Positions 4,131 to 48,237 of a DNA stretch of 64,000 bases are shown here, piece after piece. Origin of the DNA: Candidatus Absconditabacteria bacterium (GTDB taxonomy: Bacteria > Patescibacteriota > Gracilibacteria > Absconditabacterales > Absconditicoccaceae); the NCBI GenBank assembly GCA_028693445.1, contig JAQUVI010000005.1, forward strand, positions 1-64,000, in the 5' to 3' direction. Within the stretch, counting starts at the first letter, position 1; each line of letters opens with the position of its first letter. The notes under the pieces are model-generated. The model ran no database searches. It worked only from the letters and a program-made list of their open reading frames with translations, and was not told where the DNA came from. The position numbers were made by a program, and so were the translations under genes.

Positions 4131-5768
4131 CTATTTTTGGGAAACTTCGACAGGTAGGGTACCTAAAATATCGTCATAAGGAGTTGAGCTAGTTTTGTCC
4201 AAACCGTCTTTTTGTTTGTCTGATGTTGTCTTGTCTGCTTCGTGTTGTGTCAAAGTCCTAATAACCAGTATCATCATAATCACTGATGATGAAAACAACA
4301 AAAATTTGATCCATGGAGCATCGGCGATGATTGTTGGACCATATTGATCTATTTTGGCTGCTATGATGTAATTTCGCTCTACGAGAAAATCGACAATCGG
4401 TATATAATAAGTTTGTAGTCGAGAAGGTAAAAAAGCACCAATAAATCATCAAATCATTATAAAAGGGACAAGTGGAAGCACAAACATATTTCCTACTACT
4501 CAACCGATATTTATCTGTCCCATAAAGAAGATGATAACTGGGAAAATACCTAGTGTTGCTCATAGGCTGGGTTTGAGATAATTTGATCGAATTCGATGAA
4601 TTAGATTCCCGCACCAACTGACAAAGCGGGAATGACATAGTCTACGTATAATATTTTTTTTCAATTGGATTTGTCATTCCGACTTTGTTGCGAAGCTGGG
4701 GTCGGAATCTTGGGTTTTTACTTTTGGATCTTTTTTGAAAACATCGATAAAAATTATCCCCAAAACCGCTGAGAAACTGAGGAGATATCATACGTCATAA
4801 ACCAAAAAATAAGGGTTGTAGATTAGCATTCCGATATGGACTAATCCTAGCAATCTTCGCAGCGAAGTTCATCTTCCGACAAGTAACGCAAACAGAGAAA
4901 GTGAGCCCATAAGCACGGCGCGAAGCACGCTCGAATCCATTCAGCAGATGATTCCGTATGAGAGGACGGCGAGGAGGATGAGGGTTATTCTGGCGTAAAA
5001 CGGGACGAAAAAGAGGATCGCCGTCAAGAAAGCAACGAGCATAACTATATTTCCCCCACTTACGGCAACCAAATGTACAAGTCAGGAATCTATAAATAAT
5101 TGATATTCTGATTTTGTAAACTTTGATTTATCTCAGATTAGCATTCATAAAACTAGTCATGCAGTCCTGTCATTGGAGTAGGTTTGATGGAGTTTTTTTT
5201 GGAAATTGTGGCGAATTTTGGGAAATCCTTTGATAGTTCCTGTTTCTATAAGAATCGAGTTGGTTTCATATAAAATATTGGAATATCACTTCATTTTTGA
5301 TCGTTTTGGAGCGTTGAAACCACTGTAAAAAATATTTTCTCGTGAAATTTGAGTAAGAGGTGGCGGATTTGTTGACTGGACAGAATTGCGTGCGACTAAT
5401 CGAATTTGATTACCAGGGATATAGGATTTTGTTGTATAAAGCAGGTAGTCTTTGGTATCTACAGTGTAGAGATATTTTCCTGATCAGAGGGTTTCGGAAA
5501 TTGTTCCAGTTGATAGATGTCGAGATTTCGCATTGTTTTGTTGGATTGCTTCGTTTCCTCTCGCAATAACTAAACCATATCTTCGTTGATACGCTTGTCG
5601 ACTAAGCAAAACCAGAAAACAGGCTCAGGTTATGACAAAAAACACTTTGTGATAAGATTTTTTCACAAGAAGGAGTAAGCTTGGTCATCGCAACAAGAAA
5701 AGTATTATGGGCAACTCCGTAATAGTTATTGCACAGATAAATAACGAGAAAAAAATAAGAAAAAACAT
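4131..5768 (-). CDS. comEC: ComEC/Rec2-like DNA uptake channel
   Basis: A 545-residue membrane protein. N-terminal hydrophobic helices lead into a soluble DUF4131/OB-like part, then the ComEC core motif SGLVHLVAVSGGN near residues 225-238 and several helices (AFLTAILFFVPFYARITLIL, VLSYGIICGMDSSVLRAVLM). ComEC carries single-stranded DNA across the inner membrane in competence. The C-terminal metallo-beta-lactamase domain of long ComECs is absent. Three palindromic repeats sit in frame inside the gene (about 4604-4636, 4673-4711, 5542-5570), adding peptides such as TQDSDPSFATKSEG. It starts 29 nt after the CYTH gene, probably the same operon. PilT and a type IV pilin elsewhere in the window fit a DNA-uptake role. 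Confidence 0.85.
4604..4636. repeat. Palindromic repeat family B inside comEC
   Basis: GATTCCCGCACCAACTGACA then AAGCGGGAATGAC: stem TTCCCGC/GCGGGAA. In frame with comEC. It lies 37 bp from a second family B copy in the opposite orientation. Confidence 0.65.
4673..4711. repeat. Palindromic repeat family B inside comEC, inverted copy
   Basis: GTCATTCCGACTTTGTTGCG then AAGCTGGGGTCGGAATC: stem ATTCCGAC/GTCGGAAT. Read through by comEC in frame. Family B intergenic copies occur at 62772-62806 and 63550-63582. Confidence 0.65.
5542..5570. repeat. Palindromic repeat family A inside comEC
   Basis: GGATTGCTTCGTTTCCTCTC then GCAATAAC. Encodes LVIARGNEAIQ within the N-terminal soluble region of ComEC without breaking the frame. 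Confidence 0.55.
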
Positions 5769-13564: not shown

Positions 13565-16500
13565 TTATAATCAAAGTCGTTTTAAAAATCTTTTTCGTAT
13601 GTTTTTGTCTTGAAAATTGAACTGTTCTGATTTAATATTGTTTGTCATTAACTGGATTTGACCTGAAAGATCGTAAGCGTTGAATTGCTGACCACTGATT
13701 GAGACGACGCGACCAAATTTGGAAACCTCAGATTTTGATTTCTTGAATGTATCGAAATATGTTTTGATATCTGTGTTGTAATAAAGCGTAGACCAATCTT
13801 TGATTAGATAATTTTGGAATAAACTGAAATAAGTTTTGTAGAGTTTGTTTTCGTTTTTGAGCTTAATGGAGGTTTTGGAAGCAGGTAAACTGCGACAACT
13901 AATAAATTGATTTTCATAACTAACGCAGATTTGCGAACCTGTGACAGTAAATCAGACTTTTTGTAAAATATTGAAATCTGACTTTTGTATTGTTTGTAAT
14001 ATATAATTTCATGTACCAAAGTACTCATCTTCTTTTGGATTGGGATAACAAAAACGATCGAGTTTGTGTTCTTTGTATCGAAGTTCGAAGCAGTGGGCTT
14101 TGTTTAGAAGACCGAGTGATCCTGTAAAAATAGTTTCTTCGTTGGGTTTAAGGGTGCCTGAAAGATATTTTTTGGTTGTATTGTGAAGGAGATAGAGGGA
14201 TTTATTTTCTAATGTTAAATTATCGGAATTAGATTTTACTGGAAAATTTAAATGACAGTTTTTATTCTCTTCGTTTCTCTCAGAGAGACAAAAAACTGAG
14301 CTGTCTTTTTGTTCCTCTCAATTATCTTTTTGTCCCTCTGAGCCTGTCGAAGAGGATATATAATTAAAGGTTCGAAAAAGTGAAACCATTTCAGCGTCGT
14401 CCTTGCCTTGAGGGTTGGGGAGGGCGGAAAGAATCTTGATGGAAGGGAGATATTCTGGGATTTCTGGACGCCCTCCCCTCGGGATAAACTCTCATTCTAG
14501 GGGATCTGGGTAGCAAAAAGTATCAAGAAGACTAGTCTTATATCGAAGTTCGATACATGCGGATTTGTTGACCAAACCAAGCGAACCAGTCAGAATTGTT
14601 GTTTGATTTGGAATAAGAGAGGTTGTAAGATATTTTTTGGTGGTGTTGATTTTGAGGTAGAGAGATTTGGATGAAGGGGTTAAAAAACAGTTTTTATTCT
14701 CTTCGTTTCTCTCAGAGAGACAAAAAACTGTTTCTGATCAGTTTCGGAGGAGGTGGAGTTCTTCTTTGTCGTCTTTGCCAACGGGATTGGGAAGAACTCA
14801 AAGAATTTGGATGTTGGGAATATCGTCTTCTAGTTCTGGTTCTTCTTCTGGTTTTGGTAGCGCTGAACCATAACACAACTCATCAATTTGGTCTGTTTTA
14901 TAAAAAAGTCATATACAGCTTCATTTATCCAAAAATCATCGGGTTTTGGAAATAGTCGTAGATTGTCCTGAACCAAGAATCCCTGTAAGATATTTTTTGG
15001 TAGTTTTTCGATTGCCTGTAAGTGTTTCTTTGGTTAATAAATATCGATCTTTTTTGGAAAGGTCTATGGAGAAAATTAAATTTGATTTGATACTGATAAA
15101 TTCTGGGTTGAGGTGACTGATGGCTGTGATGTGAAGATCTTTTGGATTAATTGTGATTCATGTGGATGTTGTTCAGGACAAATCTTGTCAGTTTTGGGTT
15201 GATCCAGTGGACAGCTCTCAGGAAGACGTTTGGCTAGAAAATCATCCACTTTGATTGTTTTCTCAGGAACTAACTTGGAAATCTATATTTGAATAGACCA
15301 GATATTTTTCATCAAATCATGGCGAAAAGTTGTCAATTTTGGAGAAGATGTCGATATATCAATTTGAGAAAAGTCAGTTGTAATTTGACTTATTTCACGA
15401 AGACGACAAAACCTGTATTGTGTCGAAAACCTGTCCACTTTGTCCAATTAGGTAAAGTAATCATCAAGATTTTAGTTCTAAACTAGGTTTTTCTATCTTT
15501 TTTTGGTCTGATAACCATAGGTTATCAATGTAGACAACAATAAGATATTCATTTTCTTCCAAAAAAACATCCAGTTCCAAAGCTGATTTCAACAAAGAAC
15601 CAGTTAAAAAGACCTTGCCAGTGAAATCTTGCTGAGCTTTGATCTCGATAAAAGAAGAAAATTGCGAGGTTCCATAAAAGATTTCCGTAATTGAGAGGGT
15701 TCCAGTTTGGGGGGAGGTAGGTGTCGGGGTGTCGACAATTCCTGACATTCCTCCTCCCCCCAAATCTGATCAACTGGTGGTCTGGGAATCCCCTGTTTGA
15801 ATATTTCAAGATGTTGATGGGGTTATATTTTCTCCTGTTCAATAAAAATCTCAAGTATTTGTTTGTAAAAAATCTCAACTTTCCCAAATTCCAGGACTAG
15901 CGATATAAGGATCTAAAACATTGATAGCAGAAGTTGATCCAGTTATAAACCAGATTTGATTGTTGTATTGTTTGATAAGTGATGTTTTCTTATCATTGTA
16001 TTTGGTAACTAAACCTGTCTCTACTTGGAAGGTATCTATAAGATGTCCGCTTCGAGATAATGTAGCAAAAATAGACTTGGTATCTGTGAAACTAAACGAT
16101 AATGGGAGCTGTTGTTGGAGAACTAAAGGAGATATTCGACTATATGTCTGAGAGGATTTTGTAAGAATAATCGATTGATTTGGCTGGAGAGAAACTGGAA
16201 AAAAAATTGACTGGGATACTCCTAATTCCACCTCTCCAGCAAAATCTGATCCGAGATTTGTAATTTCTATCCATTCCTCTGTTCCGTCATAATAAATTTC
16301 AGAGATAATTATCTGTGGAACTTGATTTATTTGGGTATTTTGTCAGGTAGTATCGTTGATAAAATTATTTCCAGAAAGATTTTCTGTAGTTTCTGGCACA
16401 TTGTTCGATCCTGAAAAAATTTCTTCATTTTGAATGTTTTGGCCAGTATCGTTGGTTGGATTTTCTTGTATTATTTCTCATAAGTTTTCTCAGATCAGTT

Positions 16501-17655: not shown

Positions 17656-18792
17656 TTAATCAATAATATGTTCCCAAATTTGTTCTTTGGCCTTGGAAAT
17701 AGTAGCCAATCTATCTTGAGGAGTCAGAATTTTTTTGAATTCTTTGTGTCTTTTGATTTCTAAAATAAGTCTATTTAAAAATCATTCATCTTTTTGGTCT
17801 ATAAGAATATCTCCATAATTATCTTGATATCGATTTGCGTTGTCATATTGGTCGTGAGTCCAAGCAATAGGAACAATAAATAGCTTCATATCATATAATT
17901 TTTGTTCTGCTAGAGAAGTTGTCCCTGCACGAGTTATAGCTATATCACAGTAATAACAAAGCATTCCCATCTCTTTTTGAGTTACAAAATCAAAACAAAC
18001 AACATTTGGAAACCTTTCAAATTGAGGACGAAGATCTTTATTTAAAAGTCCAAGAACAACTAAAAAATGGACATCTGTTTGTAGTGTCTTATCTGATTCT
18101 AGCGCCTTAATAATTGATTGATATAGTCTTTGGGATCCTTGAGATCATCAAACAACCAAAATCCAAGATTTATTTTGGTCTAATTCTGGATATTGTTTGA
18201 TAAACATTTTTGCTTCTTTCTCGTCTATAATAATTTCTTCTGAAAGAATCTGGCCAACTGTTTTTGCTTTGGGTAATACATTGTCAAATCACGTAAATGT
18301 TGTCCAAGCAAATTTTGATGCTATTTTATTTACCAATCACGAATGAGTATCTGATTCATGAACAATTATTTTTTTGCGTAATAGCCATCCAGCTATAACC
18401 ACAGGCAAAGCTATATATCATCCTTTACAAAATATTACATCAATTTTGTAATAAATTAATCGAAACAACGACTGAGTAATTCATATTCCAAAAAGAAACA
18501 AATCTCTAAGGTTTTTTATTCTTGATTTGAGAAAAGTCTCTCTACGATATTTACCAGAGTAAATAGGAACAAAATCAAGAGTATATCATTTTTTTTCTGG
18601 GTTGTGTGATTGTTTTAATCACTTAAAAACAGTTTTTTCCAAAGATTTTTTATCTCAAAACCAATAAATAGATCATATATGATTAGAAAATTTCTTTTGT
18701 TGTTCTAAATATTCTAAAAGGCTTTTTATAGGAAAAACATGTCATCAAGTTCCTCATCAAGCCATAGCTATTTTTATTTTTTTTTGTTTCAT
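17656..18792 (-). CDS. murG: MurG UDP-GlcNAc transferase (lipid II synthesis)
   Basis: 378 residues. IAMAGGGTGGHVFP is the MurG N-terminal glycine-rich loop (four of the five glycines are TGA or GGA codons at conserved places), CKGGYIALP and HESDTHSGLVNK follow, and VVGGSQGSQRL plus ITRAGTTSLAEQ mark the UDP-GlcNAc-binding half. It transfers GlcNAc to lipid I at the inner membrane face. No other mur gene is adjacent. Confidence 0.95.
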
Positions 18793-31539: not shown

Positions 31540-32448
31540 ATGAAAACAATGAAAACTGTTTTAATTTTTGTTTTGAGTTTTTTTACTATTTTTATAGTAA
31601 ATGCTCAAATGCCTTCAGCACAATTGTTGTTGAATGGTTCAGATGTTGGCCCTGAATATACAACATGTCGGGGTTCTATTATTTTGAGCACTGGTATAGG
31701 TGATGCAACAAGCACCTATTACTGGCAAAAAACTAACCAAACTGGTGTAACAACCGATTTGGGAACAACACCAACTATTTCTTTAACACCAGTTGAGGAT
31801 TTTGTAAAGTATGGTGTTTATGTAAACGATGGTGGAACTGTTTATTATGATACATTGTTACTTACGGTAAATAATTTACCAGAGGTGATTGTGTTAAATA
31901 ATACTACATCGGTTTGTTCTAGTTCGGATGTGATTATTAATGCAACCGAAAGTCCTCTTCCCAGTCATACCTATCAATGGTATGTTGATGGAGCGCTTTT
32001 AAGTAATGGTGGTTTTTATAGTGGTGTTACTACTTATCAATTAACTGTTACTGGAGATGTTTCATTAAGTGGAAAAAGGTATGAGTGTAGAGTAACCGCT
32101 TCTTACGGTTGTTCTGCTTATGCTAGAACTGCTGGTGGACAAGGGACTTTGTTGGTTGTTAATCCACTTCCATTGAACCAAACACCAACAGTAAATGTTC
32201 CAATTGTAAGTGGTACAGCAACAGTATGTGGTTTAACAACGGAAATTGTTATTGGTTTACAAGCAACTCAATCTAATTACATATATGAGTTGTATGATGC
32301 TGATACAGATGTTGTTATAAACACTGTTGTTAGTCCTGCGTCACCAGTTGACGGTGCTATACAATTTGCACCACAATTTGTGGATAGAAATTTTAGAATA
32401 CGGGTTTGGGATTCTACCCATACGTGTTCAACAATAATTAATCAATAA
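31540..32448 (+). CDS. Bacteroidota-like secreted Ig-type repeat protein
   Basis: 302 residues. Signal peptide (MKTVLIFVLSFFTIFIVNAQ), then Ig-like repeats (TCRGSIILSTGIGDATSTYY, ICSSS-like VCSSSDVIINATESPLPSHT, YQWYVDG). Style and composition match Bacteroidota T9SS/PKD-type proteins. By hand count about 24 Gly, all GGN, none TGA, unlike native genes. Its last 95 residues are a near copy of the C-terminus of the next gene. Ends in TAA. Confidence 0.8.
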   Translation: MKTMKTVLIFVLSFFTIFIVNAQMPSAQLLLNGSDVGPEYTTCRGSIILSTGIGDATSTYYWQKTNQTGVTTDLGTTPTISLTPVEDFVKYGVYVNDGGTVYYDTLLLTVNNLPEVIVLNNTTSVCSSSDVIINATESPLPSHTYQWYVDGALLSNGGFYSGVTTYQLTVTGDVSLSGKRYECRVTASYGCSAYARTAGGQGTLLVVNPLPLNQTPTVNVPIVSGTATVCGLTTEIVIGLQATQSNYIYELYDADTDVVINTVVSPASPVDGAIQFAPQFVDRNFRIRVWDSTHTCSTIINQ

Positions 32449-32474
32449 ATAAAAAAAATTAAAACTATACGAAC

Positions 32475-33839
32475 ATGAAAAAGATTATCTTAAGTTTAAG
32501 TTTTTTGTTTATGTCCTTCGTTGTTTTTTCTCAGACACCTTGGACATTAACAACTGTACATCGAAGTTTACCAGTTGCAGATGCTGGTAGTGATCAAACT
32601 ATAGCTATAGGTGGTTCTATACAAATTGGAACCCCTGCAGTTGGTGGAAATACTTATGGTTGGACAAGCGATCCTGTTGGTTTTACATCTACCGATGCGC
32701 AACCAATAGTTAACCCTGTTGCCTCTACTTATTATTATTTAGTGGTTGATAATGGAACTTGTTTTGCCTACGATACAGTTCGAGTTAATGTTACTGGAAC
32801 ACCACTTGCTTTTACAAGCAATGCTGTTAATCCAGGAACCGTTTGTTCAGGAACTGAATCAATATTAAGTGTTGTTCCAGAAGGTGGAACTGGTGTGTAT
32901 ACGTTTAGTTGGAATATTGTTGGTGATCCAACAGTTCTTTCAATTAATGATACATTAATAGTTGCTCCTACATCATTGGTAGTTAATACCTTTAGGTATA
33001 ATATTACCTTGAGTGATGGTGTTACTACTATTAATGATACACTTGATCTTGTTGTTAATCCTTTACCAGTTGCAGATGCTGGTAGTGATCAAACTATAGC
33101 TATAGGTGGTTCTATACAAATTGGAACCCCTGCAGTTGGTGGAAATACTTATGGTTGGACAAGCGATCCTGTTGGTTTTACATCTACCGATGCGCAACCA
33201 ATAGTTAACCCTGTTGCCTCTACTTATTATTATTTAGTGGTTGATAATGGAACTTGTTTTGCCTACGATACAGTTCGAGTTAATGTTACTGGAACACCAC
33301 TTGCTTTTACAAGCAATGCTGTTAATCCAGGAACCGTTTGTTCAGGAACTGAATCAATATTAAGTGTTGTTCCAGAAGGTGGAACTGGTGTGTATACGTT
33401 TAGTTGGAATATTGTTGGTGATCCAACAGTTCTTTCAATTAATGATACATTAATAGTTGCTCCTACATCATTGGTAGTTAATACCTTTAGGTATAATATT
33501 ACCTTGAGTGATGGTGTTACTACTATTAATGATACACTTGATCTTATTGTTAATCCTTTACCATTGAATCAAATACCGACTGTAAATGTTCCTGTTGTTG
33601 CTGATACAGCAACAGTATGTGGTTTAACAACGGAAATTGTTATTGGTTTACAAGCAACTCAATCTAATTATATATATGAGTTGTACGATGCCGATACTGA
33701 TGAAATTGTTGACACAGTTACTAGTCCAGCATTACCAGTTGATGGTGCTATACAATTTGCACCACAGTTTGTGGATAGGACTTTTGGAATACGGGTTTGG
33801 GATTCTACTCGTACGTGTTTTTTGATAGTTCACAATTAA
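32475..33839 (+). CDS. Bacteroidota-like secreted repeat protein with duplicated module
   Basis: 454 residues. Signal peptide (KKIILSLSFLFMSFVVFSQT), then two consecutive 165-residue modules starting VADAGSDQTIAIGGSIQIGT (PKD/Ig-like, with CSGTESILSVVPEGGTG), then the C-terminal domain shared with the upstream gene (NPLPLNQIPTVNVPVVADTA). About 38 Gly by hand count, none TGA. No in-frame TGA at all, so it translates the same in either code. Confidence 0.8.
   Translation: MKKIILSLSFLFMSFVVFSQTPWTLTTVHRSLPVADAGSDQTIAIGGSIQIGTPAVGGNTYGWTSDPVGFTSTDAQPIVNPVASTYYYLVVDNGTCFAYDTVRVNVTGTPLAFTSNAVNPGTVCSGTESILSVVPEGGTGVYTFSWNIVGDPTVLSINDTLIVAPTSLVVNTFRYNITLSDGVTTINDTLDLVVNPLPVADAGSDQTIAIGGSIQIGTPAVGGNTYGWTSDPVGFTSTDAQPIVNPVASTYYYLVVDNGTCFAYDTVRVNVTGTPLAFTSNAVNPGTVCSGTESILSVVPEGGTGVYTFSWNIVGDPTVLSINDTLIVAPTSLVVNTFRYNITLSDGVTTINDTLDLIVNPLPLNQIPTVNVPVVADTATVCGLTTEIVIGLQATQSNYIYELYDADTDEIVDTVTSPALPVDGAIQFAPQFVDRTFGIRVWDSTRTCFLIVHN
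32571..33560 (+). repeat. 495-bp tandem duplication
   Basis: Unit 32571-33065 repeats at 33066-33560 with almost no differences seen (one G/A change near the end, CTTGTTGTT versus CTTATTGTT). The period is 165 codons. Very recent duplication, or a place where assembly should be checked. Confidence 0.85.
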
Positions 33840-33849
33840 AACAATAATT

Positions 33850-35196
33850 ATGTGGAAAAGAATAGTATTATTTCTTGGTTTGTTCTTTTTGTTTGTAATA
33901 AACCCAGTTATGATTTATTCACAAGATCCACCAAATTATTGGAGACTTGTGACTAATCATATTGAAAATCCAGTAGTTAGTGCTGGACCGGATTTAATCC
34001 TTGCATCTGGGCAAACTCAGGTGCAACCTCAAGCCACGATTAACGATGCGACAGCATCTATATTGTGGAATGGGCCAGAGAATTTTTCATCTAATGTTTT
34101 ACGACCATGGGTTTCTGATCTTGGGACGTATGAGATTACCGCCACAAACTCTTTTGGTTGCTCGTCGAGTGATCAAATGGAATTGCGGGAGGCTCAATTA
34201 GGTGATACGTTGACTTATCAACTTCCAGCTTTTTGTCTTGGAGAAGATCCAGTTTGGTTGGATGAATATATTTCATATTCTACCGAAGGAAGTTTTTTCG
34301 GACAAGATGTGGTTGGAAGGTATTTCTACCCAAATACAGCGGGAATTCATAATATATATTGGGTAATGGAAGGAGATACAATTCCTTTTCAACCTGTGTA
34401 TGTTTTAGAATCACCCACAGTAAACATACCTAACGATTCTATATTTAGGTGTGAGGGGCAAAATGGAATACTTTATGCTCAAGGTAATGCAACTAATTGG
34501 ATATGGTCAACTTTGACAAGTCCTGATGATGTGTTATCTACAGATCAAGTTTATTCTGTTTCAGTTAATCAACCAATGTATTATCTTTTGACAGGTGCTT
34601 TGGTTTATGAAACAGAACAAAAAACTTGTTCAGCAAAGGATTCTGTATTTGTATCTCCTATCTCTGCTAAATTTACTTATGAGCAGATGGTTATAGATAC
34701 AACTTATGGAACAATCTATGGTTCTTATGTTAAGTTTATACCTGATTACAAAGATGGAAATTCTTATTTTTGGAATTTGGGTATATCTGGAGTTACTTCA
34801 ACTGAAGTTTATCCTGATTATAATTATGGTGCTCCAGTTGGTACAGTTATTGTTACATTAAGTATGAGTTCTATGTGTGGGAATCATTCTCACACAGAAA
34901 ACATTTACATTAATTATGTAACAGGTATCGATAATTTAATAAAGGATGATGATGTTAAGTTGTATCCTAATCCTGTTTCAGGAGATGTTGTCAACCTTGA
35001 TTTTGGAGACAAACGCGTCTCTAGAGTTGAGGTATGGGATATGATTGGTCGACAGTTACATGTCGATCAGTATCATCATACTGAATTTATCTTCCAAACC
35101 CAGATTGACGTTTCGTCATATAGACCTGGGTTTTACATAGTAAGGGTGTTTGGTAAAGAGGGAGGTATAATCCCTATTAAATTTATCAAACAATAA
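33850..35196 (+). CDS. Bacteroidota-like protein with T9SS type A sorting domain
   Basis: 448 residues. Signal peptide (KRIVLFLGLFFLFVINPVMI), Ig/PKD-like strands (ILASGQTQVQPQATINDATA), then a C-terminal type IX secretion signal: VKLYPNPVSGDVVNLDFGDK, VEVWDMIGRQLHVDQ, IDVSSYRPGFYIVRVFGKEG. This domain directs export in Bacteroidota; no T9SS gene is in the window and the phylum assumed here is not known for it. About 33 Gly, none TGA. The terminator at 35216 follows. Confidence 0.85.
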   Translation: MWKRIVLFLGLFFLFVINPVMIYSQDPPNYWRLVTNHIENPVVSAGPDLILASGQTQVQPQATINDATASILWNGPENFSSNVLRPWVSDLGTYEITATNSFGCSSSDQMELREAQLGDTLTYQLPAFCLGEDPVWLDEYISYSTEGSFFGQDVVGRYFYPNTAGIHNIYWVMEGDTIPFQPVYVLESPTVNIPNDSIFRCEGQNGILYAQGNATNWIWSTLTSPDDVLSTDQVYSVSVNQPMYYLLTGALVYETEQKTCSAKDSVFVSPISAKFTYEQMVIDTTYGTIYGSYVKFIPDYKDGNSYFWNLGISGVTSTEVYPDYNYGAPVGTVIVTLSMSSMCGNHSHTENIYINYVTGIDNLIKDDDVKLYPNPVSGDVVNLDFGDKRVSRVEVWDMIGRQLHVDQYHHTEFIFQTQIDVSSYRPGFYIVRVFGKEGGIIPIKFIKQ

Positions 35197-36918: not shown

Positions 36919-38820
36919 TTACATTCTTTCCAAAAAACTCATACCGATTAGTTCCATTACGGTTTTCATTCTTTCTAGGGTTTTTTGAAGGAGAGAAATT
37001 CTAGCAGATTTTAGAAGTTCATCGGATTTGAGAATTTTGATATTTGCATAATAACTATTTACGAGTTTTGATATATCCAATAAATATCTACATAAAAAAT
37101 GAGGGGCTAACTCTTCTTGGCTTTTTACAATTATTTCGTTTCGTTCTGCTATTTTTTTGATAAGCTCAAATTCTATTTCTTCGGTAAGTAGTTTTGAAAT
37201 ATTTTCTGGTGATAAAACTTTTATAGGATCTGGATTGTTATCTATCAAACTTTGAATTCTGGCTCATGTATATAAGATATATGCTCAACTTTCACCTTGC
37301 ATATCCAAAGCTTCTTCTACATCAAAAACAATATCTTTGGAAATATCACTTTTTATCAAAAAGAATCTCAAAGATCAGATTGCAATTTTTTCTGAAACAT
37401 CATCTAACCGTTCTGCATCTTTTTCTGGATTACGTTCTTTGGTTTCTCGATATGCTTTTTCGTGAATTATATGTAGCATTTCATCTATAGTAACTGTCCA
37501 ACCTTTTCTACTTGCAAAAGGAAGTCTTTTTTCTAGTTTTTCTTCTTCTGTGAGTTTATATCCAAAACTTAATAATGTTTTTGGTGTAAGATAAACTACA
37601 CCATATCACAAAGGAATGTATTCTTTATTTTTGTTTAGATATCAAAGTAGTTTTAGAGAAGATTTAACTATTTCTTGAGGATGAAGTTGTCTATTGTCAA
37701 TAACTGTTATTGCAGTATTGTAATTTCAGAATTTTTCTTTTATTTCTCATGTTGATTCACCAGTTGTTGTGTAAATAATATTTCAATTTGGTTCATGAGT
37801 AAATGTTTTATATAAAAAATCTTTGGTAAGGTATCAAAGTTTCCACAAAGCAAAAGCAATATCTTTGGCTGTATATGTGGCTACACCATCAGATTTAATT
37901 AATATTTGATATTGTTTTTCTTCTTTTGCGTACTCAGGTAAACTAGAGAGATCTATTATTCGACAACCCATAGCTTCTCATTCATCAACATATTTTACAT
38001 ATCATTTTTCTTTTAGTAATTCTATTGCTTCAGCAAAAAATTTCATATGGAGAATATCTGTTTCCCAATTAATAATATCAAAAGATGCGTTCATTCTTCG
38101 ACAAGTTTTTATTTGTTCTAATGTGCATTTTTTTGTATATTCTTGGTGAATTTTATAAACGTCAGGATCTTTTCCTTCTTCTATTTTACGCAAAGTTTCT
38201 GATAATAATTTTTTGAATTCTGGGTCTTCGTCTTTTTCTCTCATTTGAGTATAAATTTCTCCACAATAATGATCAAACTTTTTTTCAGTTTCTATAGATA
38301 GTCAATAATGCATATGTCCAACAATATTATAACCAACATTTACTCAACTGTCGTCACCATAATTTGAAGCATGTGTTTGATAACCTAAATAATTAAATAC
38401 TTTTTTAATACTATCACCTATACAAATATTTCTAGCTTGTCCAATATGAAGTGGTTTGTTTGGGTTTGCACTCATATATTCTACAAGAATCTTTGTATCT
38501 TGATTATCTCGATCTGCTGGTGTAGGATCTGGAGTTGTGCATACATCATTTATAAATAATTCTTTTTTTATGTATGCATTTATATATGGTCAAACAGATG
38601 TTATTTTTTCAAAAAATTTAGAATTAATTTCTTTAGAAAATTCATTAGCTATTATATTTGGAGCTTTTTTGAGTTTTTTTGATAATTGGAAACAAGGAAA
38701 AGCAAAATCACCTCAAATATTTTCAGGAGGTATTTCTATAAGATCCATAATTTCATCAAAAGAAATGTTTGTTTTCTGCCTTATAATTTCTGCAAAAAGA
38801 TTTTTATATTTTTCCAACAT
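36919..38820 (-). CDS. argS: Arginyl-tRNA synthetase
   Basis: 633 residues. Class I enzyme: N-terminal Arg-tRNA domain, then VEYMSANPNKPLHIGQARNI (HIGH-type motif HIGQ near residue 133) and GYQTHASNYGDDSGVNVGYN, and a C-terminal DALR-type helical domain ending in TVMELIGMSFLERM. Charges tRNA-Arg; a tRNA-Arg(TCT) is at 40661. Confidence 0.93.
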
Positions 38821-40121: not shown

Positions 40122-40195
40122 GCGGATATGATGTAATTGGTGTAGCATAGCAGACTTCAGCTCTGTTCGTACGGGTTCGAGTCCCGTTATCCGCT
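40122..40195 (+). tRNA. tRNA-Gly(UCA), decoder of UGA as glycine
   Basis: 74 nt: acceptor GCGGATA/TATCCGC, anticodon stem GCAGA/TCTGT with loop CTTCAGC, so anticodon UCA at 40157-40159; T-arm ACGGG-TTCGAGT-CCCGT. Anticodon UCA pairs with UGA. G1-C72, C2-G71 and U73 are bacterial tRNA-Gly identity features shared with tRNA-Gly(GCC) here; a tRNA-Trp would have G73 and anticodon CCA. This is the expected partner of the table 25 code. No CCA is encoded. Confidence 0.93.
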
Positions 40196-43880: not shown

Positions 43881-44276
43881 ATGGCAGTAAAAGATAAAGC
43901 TTCTCCAAAGAAGAAAAGAGATATTAAAATTACTTTTGGTATCTTGAAGGTTACTACTACAGAAAACAACACTCTTATCATCTTAGTAGATGAAAATTGA
44001 AATAAAGTTGTTGGAGGTGGTACATGACTTGTGGGATATAAATGAGCAAAACAAAACACTCCTTATGCGGCTGAAGTGTTAACTAAACACTTGTTAAAGG
44101 AAGCGCAAGGTTTTGGTCTTAAAGAGATTGGAATTATTTTTAAGGGTGTTGGACTTGCTAGAGAGTGAGTTTTTAAAGCAATAAATGAAATTGGTTTAAT
44201 AGATATTCAATATATTAAAGAAGCAACTCCTTTACAATTTGGTGGTGTAAAAGGTGTGAGACCAAAGAAAAATTAA
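43881..44276 (+). CDS. rpsK: Ribosomal protein uS11
   Basis: 131 residues: DIKITFGILKVTTTENNTLI, VVGGGTGLVGYKGAKQNTPY, AAEVLTKHLLKEAQGFGLKE and GVKGVRPKKN. Platform protein of the small subunit, binding 16S rRNA near the mRNA exit. Follows rpsM by 27 nt. Confidence 0.96.
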
Positions 44277-44947: not shown

Positions 44948-45940
44948 ATGCTAGATATCCAAAAACTTATTTGATCTCCAAAAATTGTTGTTTCAGAGTT
45001 AGATGATAGAGTTACAAAACTTGAGGTAAAATATTTACCAAGATGATTTGGACATTCTTTATGAAATGCTTTGAGAAGAATTATTCTTTGATATAGTATT
45101 GGTGCTGCTGTTACATGAATCAAAATTAAAGGAGTTTCTCATGAGTATCATGTTGTTGATGGTGTTCTTGAAAATGTAATTGGTATTATGTTAAATTTCA
45201 AAACATTACGTTTCAATTTTGATGAAAATATTGATTCTATACAATGGATTTCTCAAAGATTCTCTGGTGTTTGAGTTTATACAGCAAAAGATATAAAACT
45301 TCCTGCTGGTGTTGAATTATTAAATCCAGAAGTTCATTTGTTTGAAATTACTGATCCATCAGTTGAATTAAATATGGATATTAGAATAGAAAAATGATAT
45401 TGATATTATAGTATTGATTTTTTGAGAAGTCGTGATAAAAAAGAAGATAGTGATGTAAATATTTTATTGATAGACAATGAATTTAAATTGGTTGATTCTA
45501 TAAAATATGAAGTAGAAGAGGTAATAGAAGATTTCACTGGTTCTACAAAAGATTTGTTGGTATTGGAAATAAAAACATGATATAGTGGCGTTTCTGCAAA
45601 AGAAATTGTTATGTTTGCTGGTGAAATATTGGCATCATACGCAAAATTATTTGTATTTGATAATGTATATATAGATAGATCTGTTATGGTAGATATGGAT
45701 GATCTTGTTCAAGAAACAGCTAGAACAGAACATGAAATCGGTGTTAAAACAATGCCAATTGATGCTCTTCCTTTGAGTGAAAGAACAAGAAATGCTTTGA
45801 TAAAAAATAACATATTGTACGTTGAAGATCTTGAAAAGAAAAAGAAATGAGAATTATTATTGATGAAATGAGTTTGAAGAAAAGCTATTGATGAAATTGT
45901 TAGTTCGTTAGCTAATATTAATAAATCTTTGATCGGATAA
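44948..45940 (+). CDS. rpoA: RNA polymerase alpha subunit
   Basis: 330 residues. Alpha-NTD: ARFGHSLGNALRRIILGYSI-like motif (PRGFGHSLGNALRRII), DGVLENVIGIMLNF and AGEILASYAKLFVF; alpha-CTD: IDALPLSERTRNALIKNNIL and ELLLMKGVGRKAIDEIVSSL. TGA supplies most conserved glycines of the NTD. Lies between rpsD and rplQ as usual. Confidence 0.96.
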
Positions 45941-47652: not shown

Positions 47653-48237
47653 ATGAAAAAAGATATTATCTTGTTTTGAATACAATGATCGTGAAAAGGA
47701 ACTCAGGCTGATTTGTTGATGAAAAAGCTTGAATGATACTTGTATTTTGAGCCAGGTCAGATTTTTAGAGCGTTGAAATCAAATGACAATATTTTGTGAG
47801 AACATATTAGAGATCGTATGGATAAGTGACAAATGGTAGATGACGCTATTACATTTGGTGTTTTTGATGTATATCAACATCTTTTGAAACCATGAAATTA
47901 TATGCTTATTGATTGATTTTTGAGAACTTTGGAGCAAATGTACTATTTTCTTACACAGGAACATAAACACAAAAGAGATTTTGTATGAATTCATTATAAT
48001 TTGGATAAAGAAGAAGCAATTAAAAGATTATACAATAGAGCAAAGTTAGAATGACGTAAAGATGATACAGAAAAGTCAATTAGTACCAGGCTTGATATTT
48101 ATGAGAAAGAGACAAAACCAGTAATTGAGTATTTGGATGGTTTGGGTAAAATTATACATATAAATGCTCATCAATCTATCGAAGATATCTACAAAGAAAC
48201 TGTTGAGTCTTTAAAATCGCATTGATTATTACAATAA
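47653..48237 (+). CDS. adk: Adenylate kinase-type nucleoside monophosphate kinase
   Basis: 194 residues. P-loop GIQGSGKGTQADLLMKKL with three of its four glycines coded by TGA; FEPGQIFRALKSN (NMP-binding), RDRMDKGQMVDDAITFGVF and MLIDGFLRTLEQMYYF, then LYNRAKLEGRKDDTEKSIST for the LID, without a long zinc LID. Balances AMP/ADP/ATP. By hand count 11 of 16 Gly codons are TGA. Confidence 0.9.

Follow-up and report, generated by a model that had tools for sequence, protein, structure and literature searches.

A tRNA-Gly(UCA) as the very probable decoder of UGA in an Absconditabacteria genome

Our analysis of the window, i.e. the whole 64,000-nucleotide stretch of DNA studied here, indicates that the tRNA at 40122-40195 (+) almost certainly decodes UGA by inserting glycine, in an Absconditabacteria (SR1) genome that belongs to the genus of RAAC1_SR1_1. 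In the mechanism we propose, RF2 would have been lost and translation would end at UAA and UAG by way of RF1; GlyRS would charge the tRNA by recognising C35 and the glycine acceptor bases; the UCA anticodon would then decode UGA, which makes up about half of the glycine codons; and CGA and CGG would be decoded as tryptophan in the same genome. The tRNA itself would most likely derive from a tRNA-Gly(UCC).

The window tRNA and glycine at UGA

ARAGORN places the tRNA, 74 nt long and without encoded CCA, at precisely 40122-40195 (+) with anticodon tca, and Rfam RF00005 matches it at 60.8 bits (E 1e-10 for the window and 4.4e-13 for the genome). The acceptor stem pairs GCGGATA (40122-40128, +; G1, C2, G3) with TATCCGC, followed by the discriminator U73 (40188-40195, +); the cloverleaf thus shows G1-C72, C2-G71, G3-C70 and U73, the same bases that the accessible passages of PMC8629427 give for glycine acceptors. 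The anticodon stem has 5 bp including G27-U43 and carries the loop CUUCAGC (40155-40161, +), in which C32 and U33 precede the anticodon U34-C35-A36 (40157-40159) and G37 (40160) and C38 (40161) follow it. A sequence-only reading of this DNA had described a complete tRNA with UCA, G1-C72, C2-G71 and U73 at this locus, and ARAGORN, Rfam and the cloverleaf bear it out. The folding energy of the tRNA is not unusual relative to shuffled sequences (z -1.18). BLAST finds one full-length copy in the genome, and its second match covers just 24 bases of a different tRNA. In all, 36 tRNA matches were recorded in the genome, among them tRNA-Gly(GCC) and tRNA-Gly(UCC) besides tRNA-Gly(UCA). The contamination rating of the genome is 6.15%, and the window contig itself has coding evidence.

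Several genes place UGA at glycine positions. In adk (47653-48237, +), counted from the ATG at ORF residue 33, glycine is written with 11 UGA and 5 GGN codons, exactly the 11 of 16 counted earlier by hand, and Pfam ADK scores 82.6 bits when UGA is read as Gly, as against 65.1 for Ala, 64.8 for Ser and 57.4 for Trp. Every Pfam RpoA domain scores best with glycine at the 12 UGA codons of rpoA (44948-45940, +; insert domain, 66.8 bits vs. 50.7 with Trp; CTD, 43.2 vs. 33.3), as does Pfam S11 with the 4 UGA codons of rpsK (43881-44276, +; 63.6 vs. 50.9); glycine therefore outscored Trp in all comparisons, as had been expected of this check, and outscored Ala and Ser where these were tried. A further 15 UGA codons, along with 2 CGA codons, lie in murG (17656-18792, -), which matches the NCBIfam murG model under its curated cut-off. 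Across the selected window ORFs outside a foreign island described below, UGA accounts for 530 of 1042 glycine codons. An alignment of 49 window genes with eight relatives, in which UGA, CGA and CGG were masked in the window genes and the relatives alike, showed Gly opposite UGA in 402 of 556 plain residues and Ser in 26. In the genome's RpoB, which lies outside the window, scoring of 49 UGA columns against 39 standard-code sequences gave glycine a log-likelihood of +62.8, with the next residue at -48.6.

These results also decide between glycine and tryptophan. Mycoplasma Trp tRNAs that decode UGA have the anticodon UCA, as passages of PMC8629427 state, and on this ground the window tRNA could be a tRNA-Trp(UCA) in a code of the code 4 type; the same source gives G73 and A/G1-U72 as Trp features, whereas the window tRNA has U73 and G1-C72. 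Trp stands opposite UGA in only 2 of the 556 residues, and Pfam scores fall with Trp in all comparisons; with the RpoB column scores and the masked comparison excluding it, we regard this identity as having practically no chance of being correct. Selenocysteine, whose one support is the tRNA-SeC label that ARAGORN prints because of the anticodon alone, is just as implausible and was rejected: the cloverleaf is ordinary, its 7-bp acceptor stem, 5-bp T stem and 4-nt variable region lack the long acceptor branch and long variable arm of tRNA-Sec, and 530 UGA codons located mainly at glycine positions cannot be selenocysteine.

The release factors point in the same direction. A search of the genome with the RF2 model returned a single match, confirmed as RF1 at 452 bits, and no RF2; a GlyRS gene is present above cut-off. 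The earlier claim that UGA falls at glycine positions with the window tRNA as its decoder is therefore supported by every test run (Pfam, RpoB columns, masked comparison and RF2). RF2 is above cut-off in 201 of 353 genomes of the class, and among the 127 genomes of families f1, f12, f14, f18 and f19 it occurs, by E-values, in one only; of the 127, 13 lack any release-factor match at the threshold used. The one exception, G128, belongs to the recoded family f14; its RF2 match has an E-value of 1.1e-152, and the assembly, 2.7 Mb in 500 contigs, probably represents mixed bins. We infer glycine charging of the window tRNA from its acceptor bases together with the aminoacylation published for the SR1 tRNA (Campbell et al. 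2013, as cited in the accessible text of PMC13293708).

The anticodon loop may contribute to decoding. Next to A36, an A37 is as a rule hypermodified by MiaA, an enzyme that requires A36-A37-A38. G37 and C38 are found in 22 of the 22 distinct sequences of the window tRNA family, in which UUCAGCUCUG at the anticodon loop is unchanged, whereas a second UCA tRNA type (in f14, f18 and f19) and the tRNA(UCA) of genome G045 have A37 and C38. U34 could in principle decode the Trp codon UGG as well as UGA, and the most likely reason for G37 and C38 in place of the usual A37 would be that they tune U34 such that UGA is decoded and UGG is not; a weaker loop may help a U34 tRNA that needs UGA but not UGG. 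We offer this role of G37-C38 as a conjecture.

Tryptophan at CGA and CGG, and a UGA-free island

The code of this genome departs from the standard one at more than UGA. Outside the foreign island, the plain residues opposite CGA include 25 Trp and no Arg among 47, and those opposite CGG 4 Trp and no Arg among 8 (pooled, Trp 29 and Arg 0 of 55); own UGG codons lie opposite CGA 33 times, and own CGU, CGC, AGA and AGG codons do so in 1 of 1248 aligned residues. The argS gene (36919-38820, -; NCBIfam and relatives) contains 15 UGA, 5 CGA and 1 CGG codons, and the relative G001 has UGG (Trp) at 3 of these 6 CGA/CGG positions. A comEC-like gene (4131-5768, -; Pfam Competence, codon counts and relatives) has 12 CGA codons, 2 of which are UGG in a relative. 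Arginine at CGA had been considered from CGA codons of the window argS that lie opposite Arg or mixed residues in solved structures; comparison with relatives overturned it. Outside the island, CGA occurs 55 times and UGG 76 times per 10,000 codons, and the reassignment of CGA to Trp therefore looks advanced.

Two tRNAs outside the window match these codons: by cloverleaf reading, tRNA(CCG) (L006) has A1-U72 and G73 and tRNA(UCG) (L027) has G1-C72 and G73, both without A20, and together they form the CCG and UCG pair, with G73 and no A20, that marks the Absconditabacteria code. As tRNA(UCG) has G1-C72, its Trp identity rests on G73, the missing A20 and the codon evidence. A code identical to NCBI table 25, in which CGA and CGG remain Arg, yields good Pfam matches, and Arg does appear in two CGA/CGG comparisons, both confined to genes of the foreign island; against it stand the absence of Arg and the 29 Trp among the 55 residues outside the island and the A1-U72 and G73 of tRNA(CCG), and we judge it very improbable. 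UGA is not the sole departure from table 11, as table 25 would have it, because CGA and CGG also mean Trp. The window had been taken as a self-contained proof of table 25: UGA as glycine and its decoder stand, but the full code does not follow from the window, as CGA and CGG mean Trp and the UCG and CCG tRNAs lie outside it. The NCBI code list presumably includes a table 37; no paper using a code-37 name was found in the openly available literature. With table 25, annotation of this group gets about one residue in 160 wrong; in the selected window ORFs, CGA and CGG account for 109 of 17,468 codons.

The foreign island consists of three genes at 31540-35196 (+) whose 95 glycine codons include no UGA and whose G+C content is higher. 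They encode, as in Bacteroidota, Ig-like CHU_C-associated domains together with a C-terminal sorting domain for type IX secretion. The island was probably acquired by horizontal transfer from a donor with the standard code. Its third gene has a homologue close to the same neighbours in G002 (39% identical) and G001 (33%), also without UGA, and the neighbours in these genomes are 56-88% identical and use UGA. An assembly chimera is an unlikely source of the UGA-free island, because the third-gene homologue and the neighbour orthologues (including argS) share a stretch in these two other species of the genus; such genes may have entered this one site more than once. The second island gene (32475-33839, +) contains, by eye in its translation, two near-identical repeats of well over 100 residues each.

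Two UCA tRNA types and the origins of UGA as glycine

Among 84 tRNAs compared, taken from G046, the window's genome, two loci and part of G037 rather than from full f14/f19 sets, the tRNA-Gly(UCC) of G037, a standard-code neighbour, has the body most like that of the window tRNA (mean score 32.7; next 26.5). tRNA-Gly(UCC) differs from the window tRNA in anticodon, loop positions 37-38 and D arm, the G037 copy having the nearest body.

Families f14, f18 and f19 have another UCA tRNA with glycine acceptor bases. It shares UCA, G1-C72, C2-G71, G3-C70, U73 and C38 with the window tRNA and differs in its dissimilar body, its A37, a D loop that by our own reading lacks G18-G19, and its encoded CCA. 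Seven loci of this second type, six of them distinct, score on average 27.2 against the window type over the full length and 19.1 over the body, compared with 24.8 (mean) and 22.5 (body median) for tRNAs of different amino acids and 40.0 (mean) for same-anticodon tRNAs across lineages. As these scores lie at the level of unrelated tRNAs, the two types are, by sequence comparison, not recognisably the same gene, though the RpoB+RpoC tree makes f1 the sister of f14/f18/f19 (support 99). CGA tests as Arg in RpoB of f18 and f19, and f14/f18/f19 are probably Gracilibacteria/BD1-5. A pattern search of 353 genomes, which misses A3-U70 variants such as that of G008 (found by BLAST), gave matches in 40 of 49 genomes of f1, 2 of 2 of f18, 44 of 48 of f14 and 20 of 27 of f19 (including G081 and G085, whose matches do not look like tRNAs), and in 9 of 227 genomes of the other families including f12, of which only that of G045 is tRNA-like.

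Two further loci resemble the second type in the anticodon arm. At the extreme end of a 66-kb contig (L148:321-394), genome G012 of f1 carries an additional and distinct tRNA(UCA) that has glycine acceptor bases and an anticodon arm like that of the f14/f19 type; and an IMG/VR viral contig (L316) contains the anticodon-arm motif of the f14/f19 type near 13718-13736.

A recoded genome outside these families, G046 of f12, bears on how often the reassignment arose. Its RpoB frame has 77 UGA vs. 2 GGN codons and its RpoC 100 vs. 4, and in 75 UGA columns Gly scores +133.3 vs. -81.2. In an RpoB+RpoC tree of 30 rows, G046 joins G056 of f17, a genome that matches RF2 at 2.6e-118, within standard-code families (support 99); this tree excludes G312 (RpoC too short), G073, G091, G036 and G043 (unsampled), as well as G051 and G041, for which RpoC was not found in the fetched stretches. 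Neither a UCA tRNA (by pattern search and tRNA typing) nor a release factor of either kind was found in G046, a single draft genome, and an assembly gap may account for both. Loci L249 and L135 of this genome write glycine almost exclusively as UGA, in a genome that RpoB+RpoC places outside the known recoded clade. A second tRNA with a CCA anticodon lies at L160:1589-1664; its C1-G72 and A73 set it apart from the ordinary tRNA-Trp of L188.

G045 of f11, placed in the f11/f12/f15/f17 subclade, keeps RF2, and no UGA was found in its RpoB, its RpoC or the two longest ORFs of the contig that carries its tRNA. Its chromosomal tRNA(UCA) (L140:486-562; also L273) has G1-C72, C2-G71, G3-C70, U73 and encoded CCA, and scores 41.0 to the window tRNA, above its score to any other tRNA compared.

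We lean slightly towards at least two reassignments of UGA to glycine in the class: one before the split of f1 from f14/f18/f19, whose unlike decoders would reflect a second recruitment or a replacement, and a separate one in f12, with G045 as a living intermediate that holds a candidate suppressor tRNA before loss of RF2. The competing account, to which we give appreciably less credence, is a single event, in an ancestor shared by every recoded family (f12 among them), after which the tRNAs simply diverged. It agrees with the sister relationship of f1 and f14/f18/f19 (support 99) and with the one-ancestor view in the accessible text of PMC13293708, and a single recoded clade is not rejected when RpoB is tested by itself (p 0.25); RpoB+RpoC, however, rejects a single clade of all recoded rows including f12 (AU p 0.006), and the bodies of the two tRNA types score no higher than unrelated tRNAs. 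If UGA came to mean glycine more than once, and if an RF2-bearing relative has a suppressor tRNA, the order of steps from stop to sense is testable in living lineages.

Comparison with known systems

The multiple-origin leads matter more than the window tRNA itself, which confirms published biology. As passages of PMC13293708 have it, UGA-to-glycine reassignment is confined to the JAEDAM01 lineage and dates from its last common ancestor; if the placement of G046 holds, this single-ancestor view needs revising. In the titles, abstracts and passages of the openly available literature, we found no paper that describes two tRNA types or proposes a second origin.

The window tRNA is 100% identical in 7 genomes including its own, four of which belong to other genera. 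Its core motif occurs in RAAC1_SR1_1 (CP006913.1, candidate division SR1), and in 38 named-genome stretches in all: 12 from SR1, Absconditabacteria or Absconditabacterales, 5 from Gracilibacteria, 5 from Patescibacteria, 1 from Peribacteria and 15 others; IMG/VR has no match to the motif. The 22 distinct sequences of the family vary little and have 'TGATGTA.TTGGTGTAGCAT..CAGA.TTCAGCTCTG' in common. As G002, a member of the same genus that matches RAAC1_SR1_1, has an identical tRNA, the window tRNA is already known Absconditabacteria biology.

The SR1 tRNA-Gly(UCA), whose aminoacylation was published by Campbell et al. 2013 (cited here through the accessible text of PMC13293708), resembles the window tRNA in its UCA anticodon, its glycine acceptor bases and the UGA codons at conserved glycines. 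The likeness extends to the code: Shulgina and Eddy 2021 (PMC8629427, in the passages available) give UGA as Gly and CGA/CGG as Trp for Absconditabacteria, and all three altered codons (UGA, CGA and CGG) are seen in the window's genome, where CGA reaches 55 per 10,000 codons outside the island, compared with fewer than 37 per 10,000 in aligned Pfam domains, a different measure, in the same passages.
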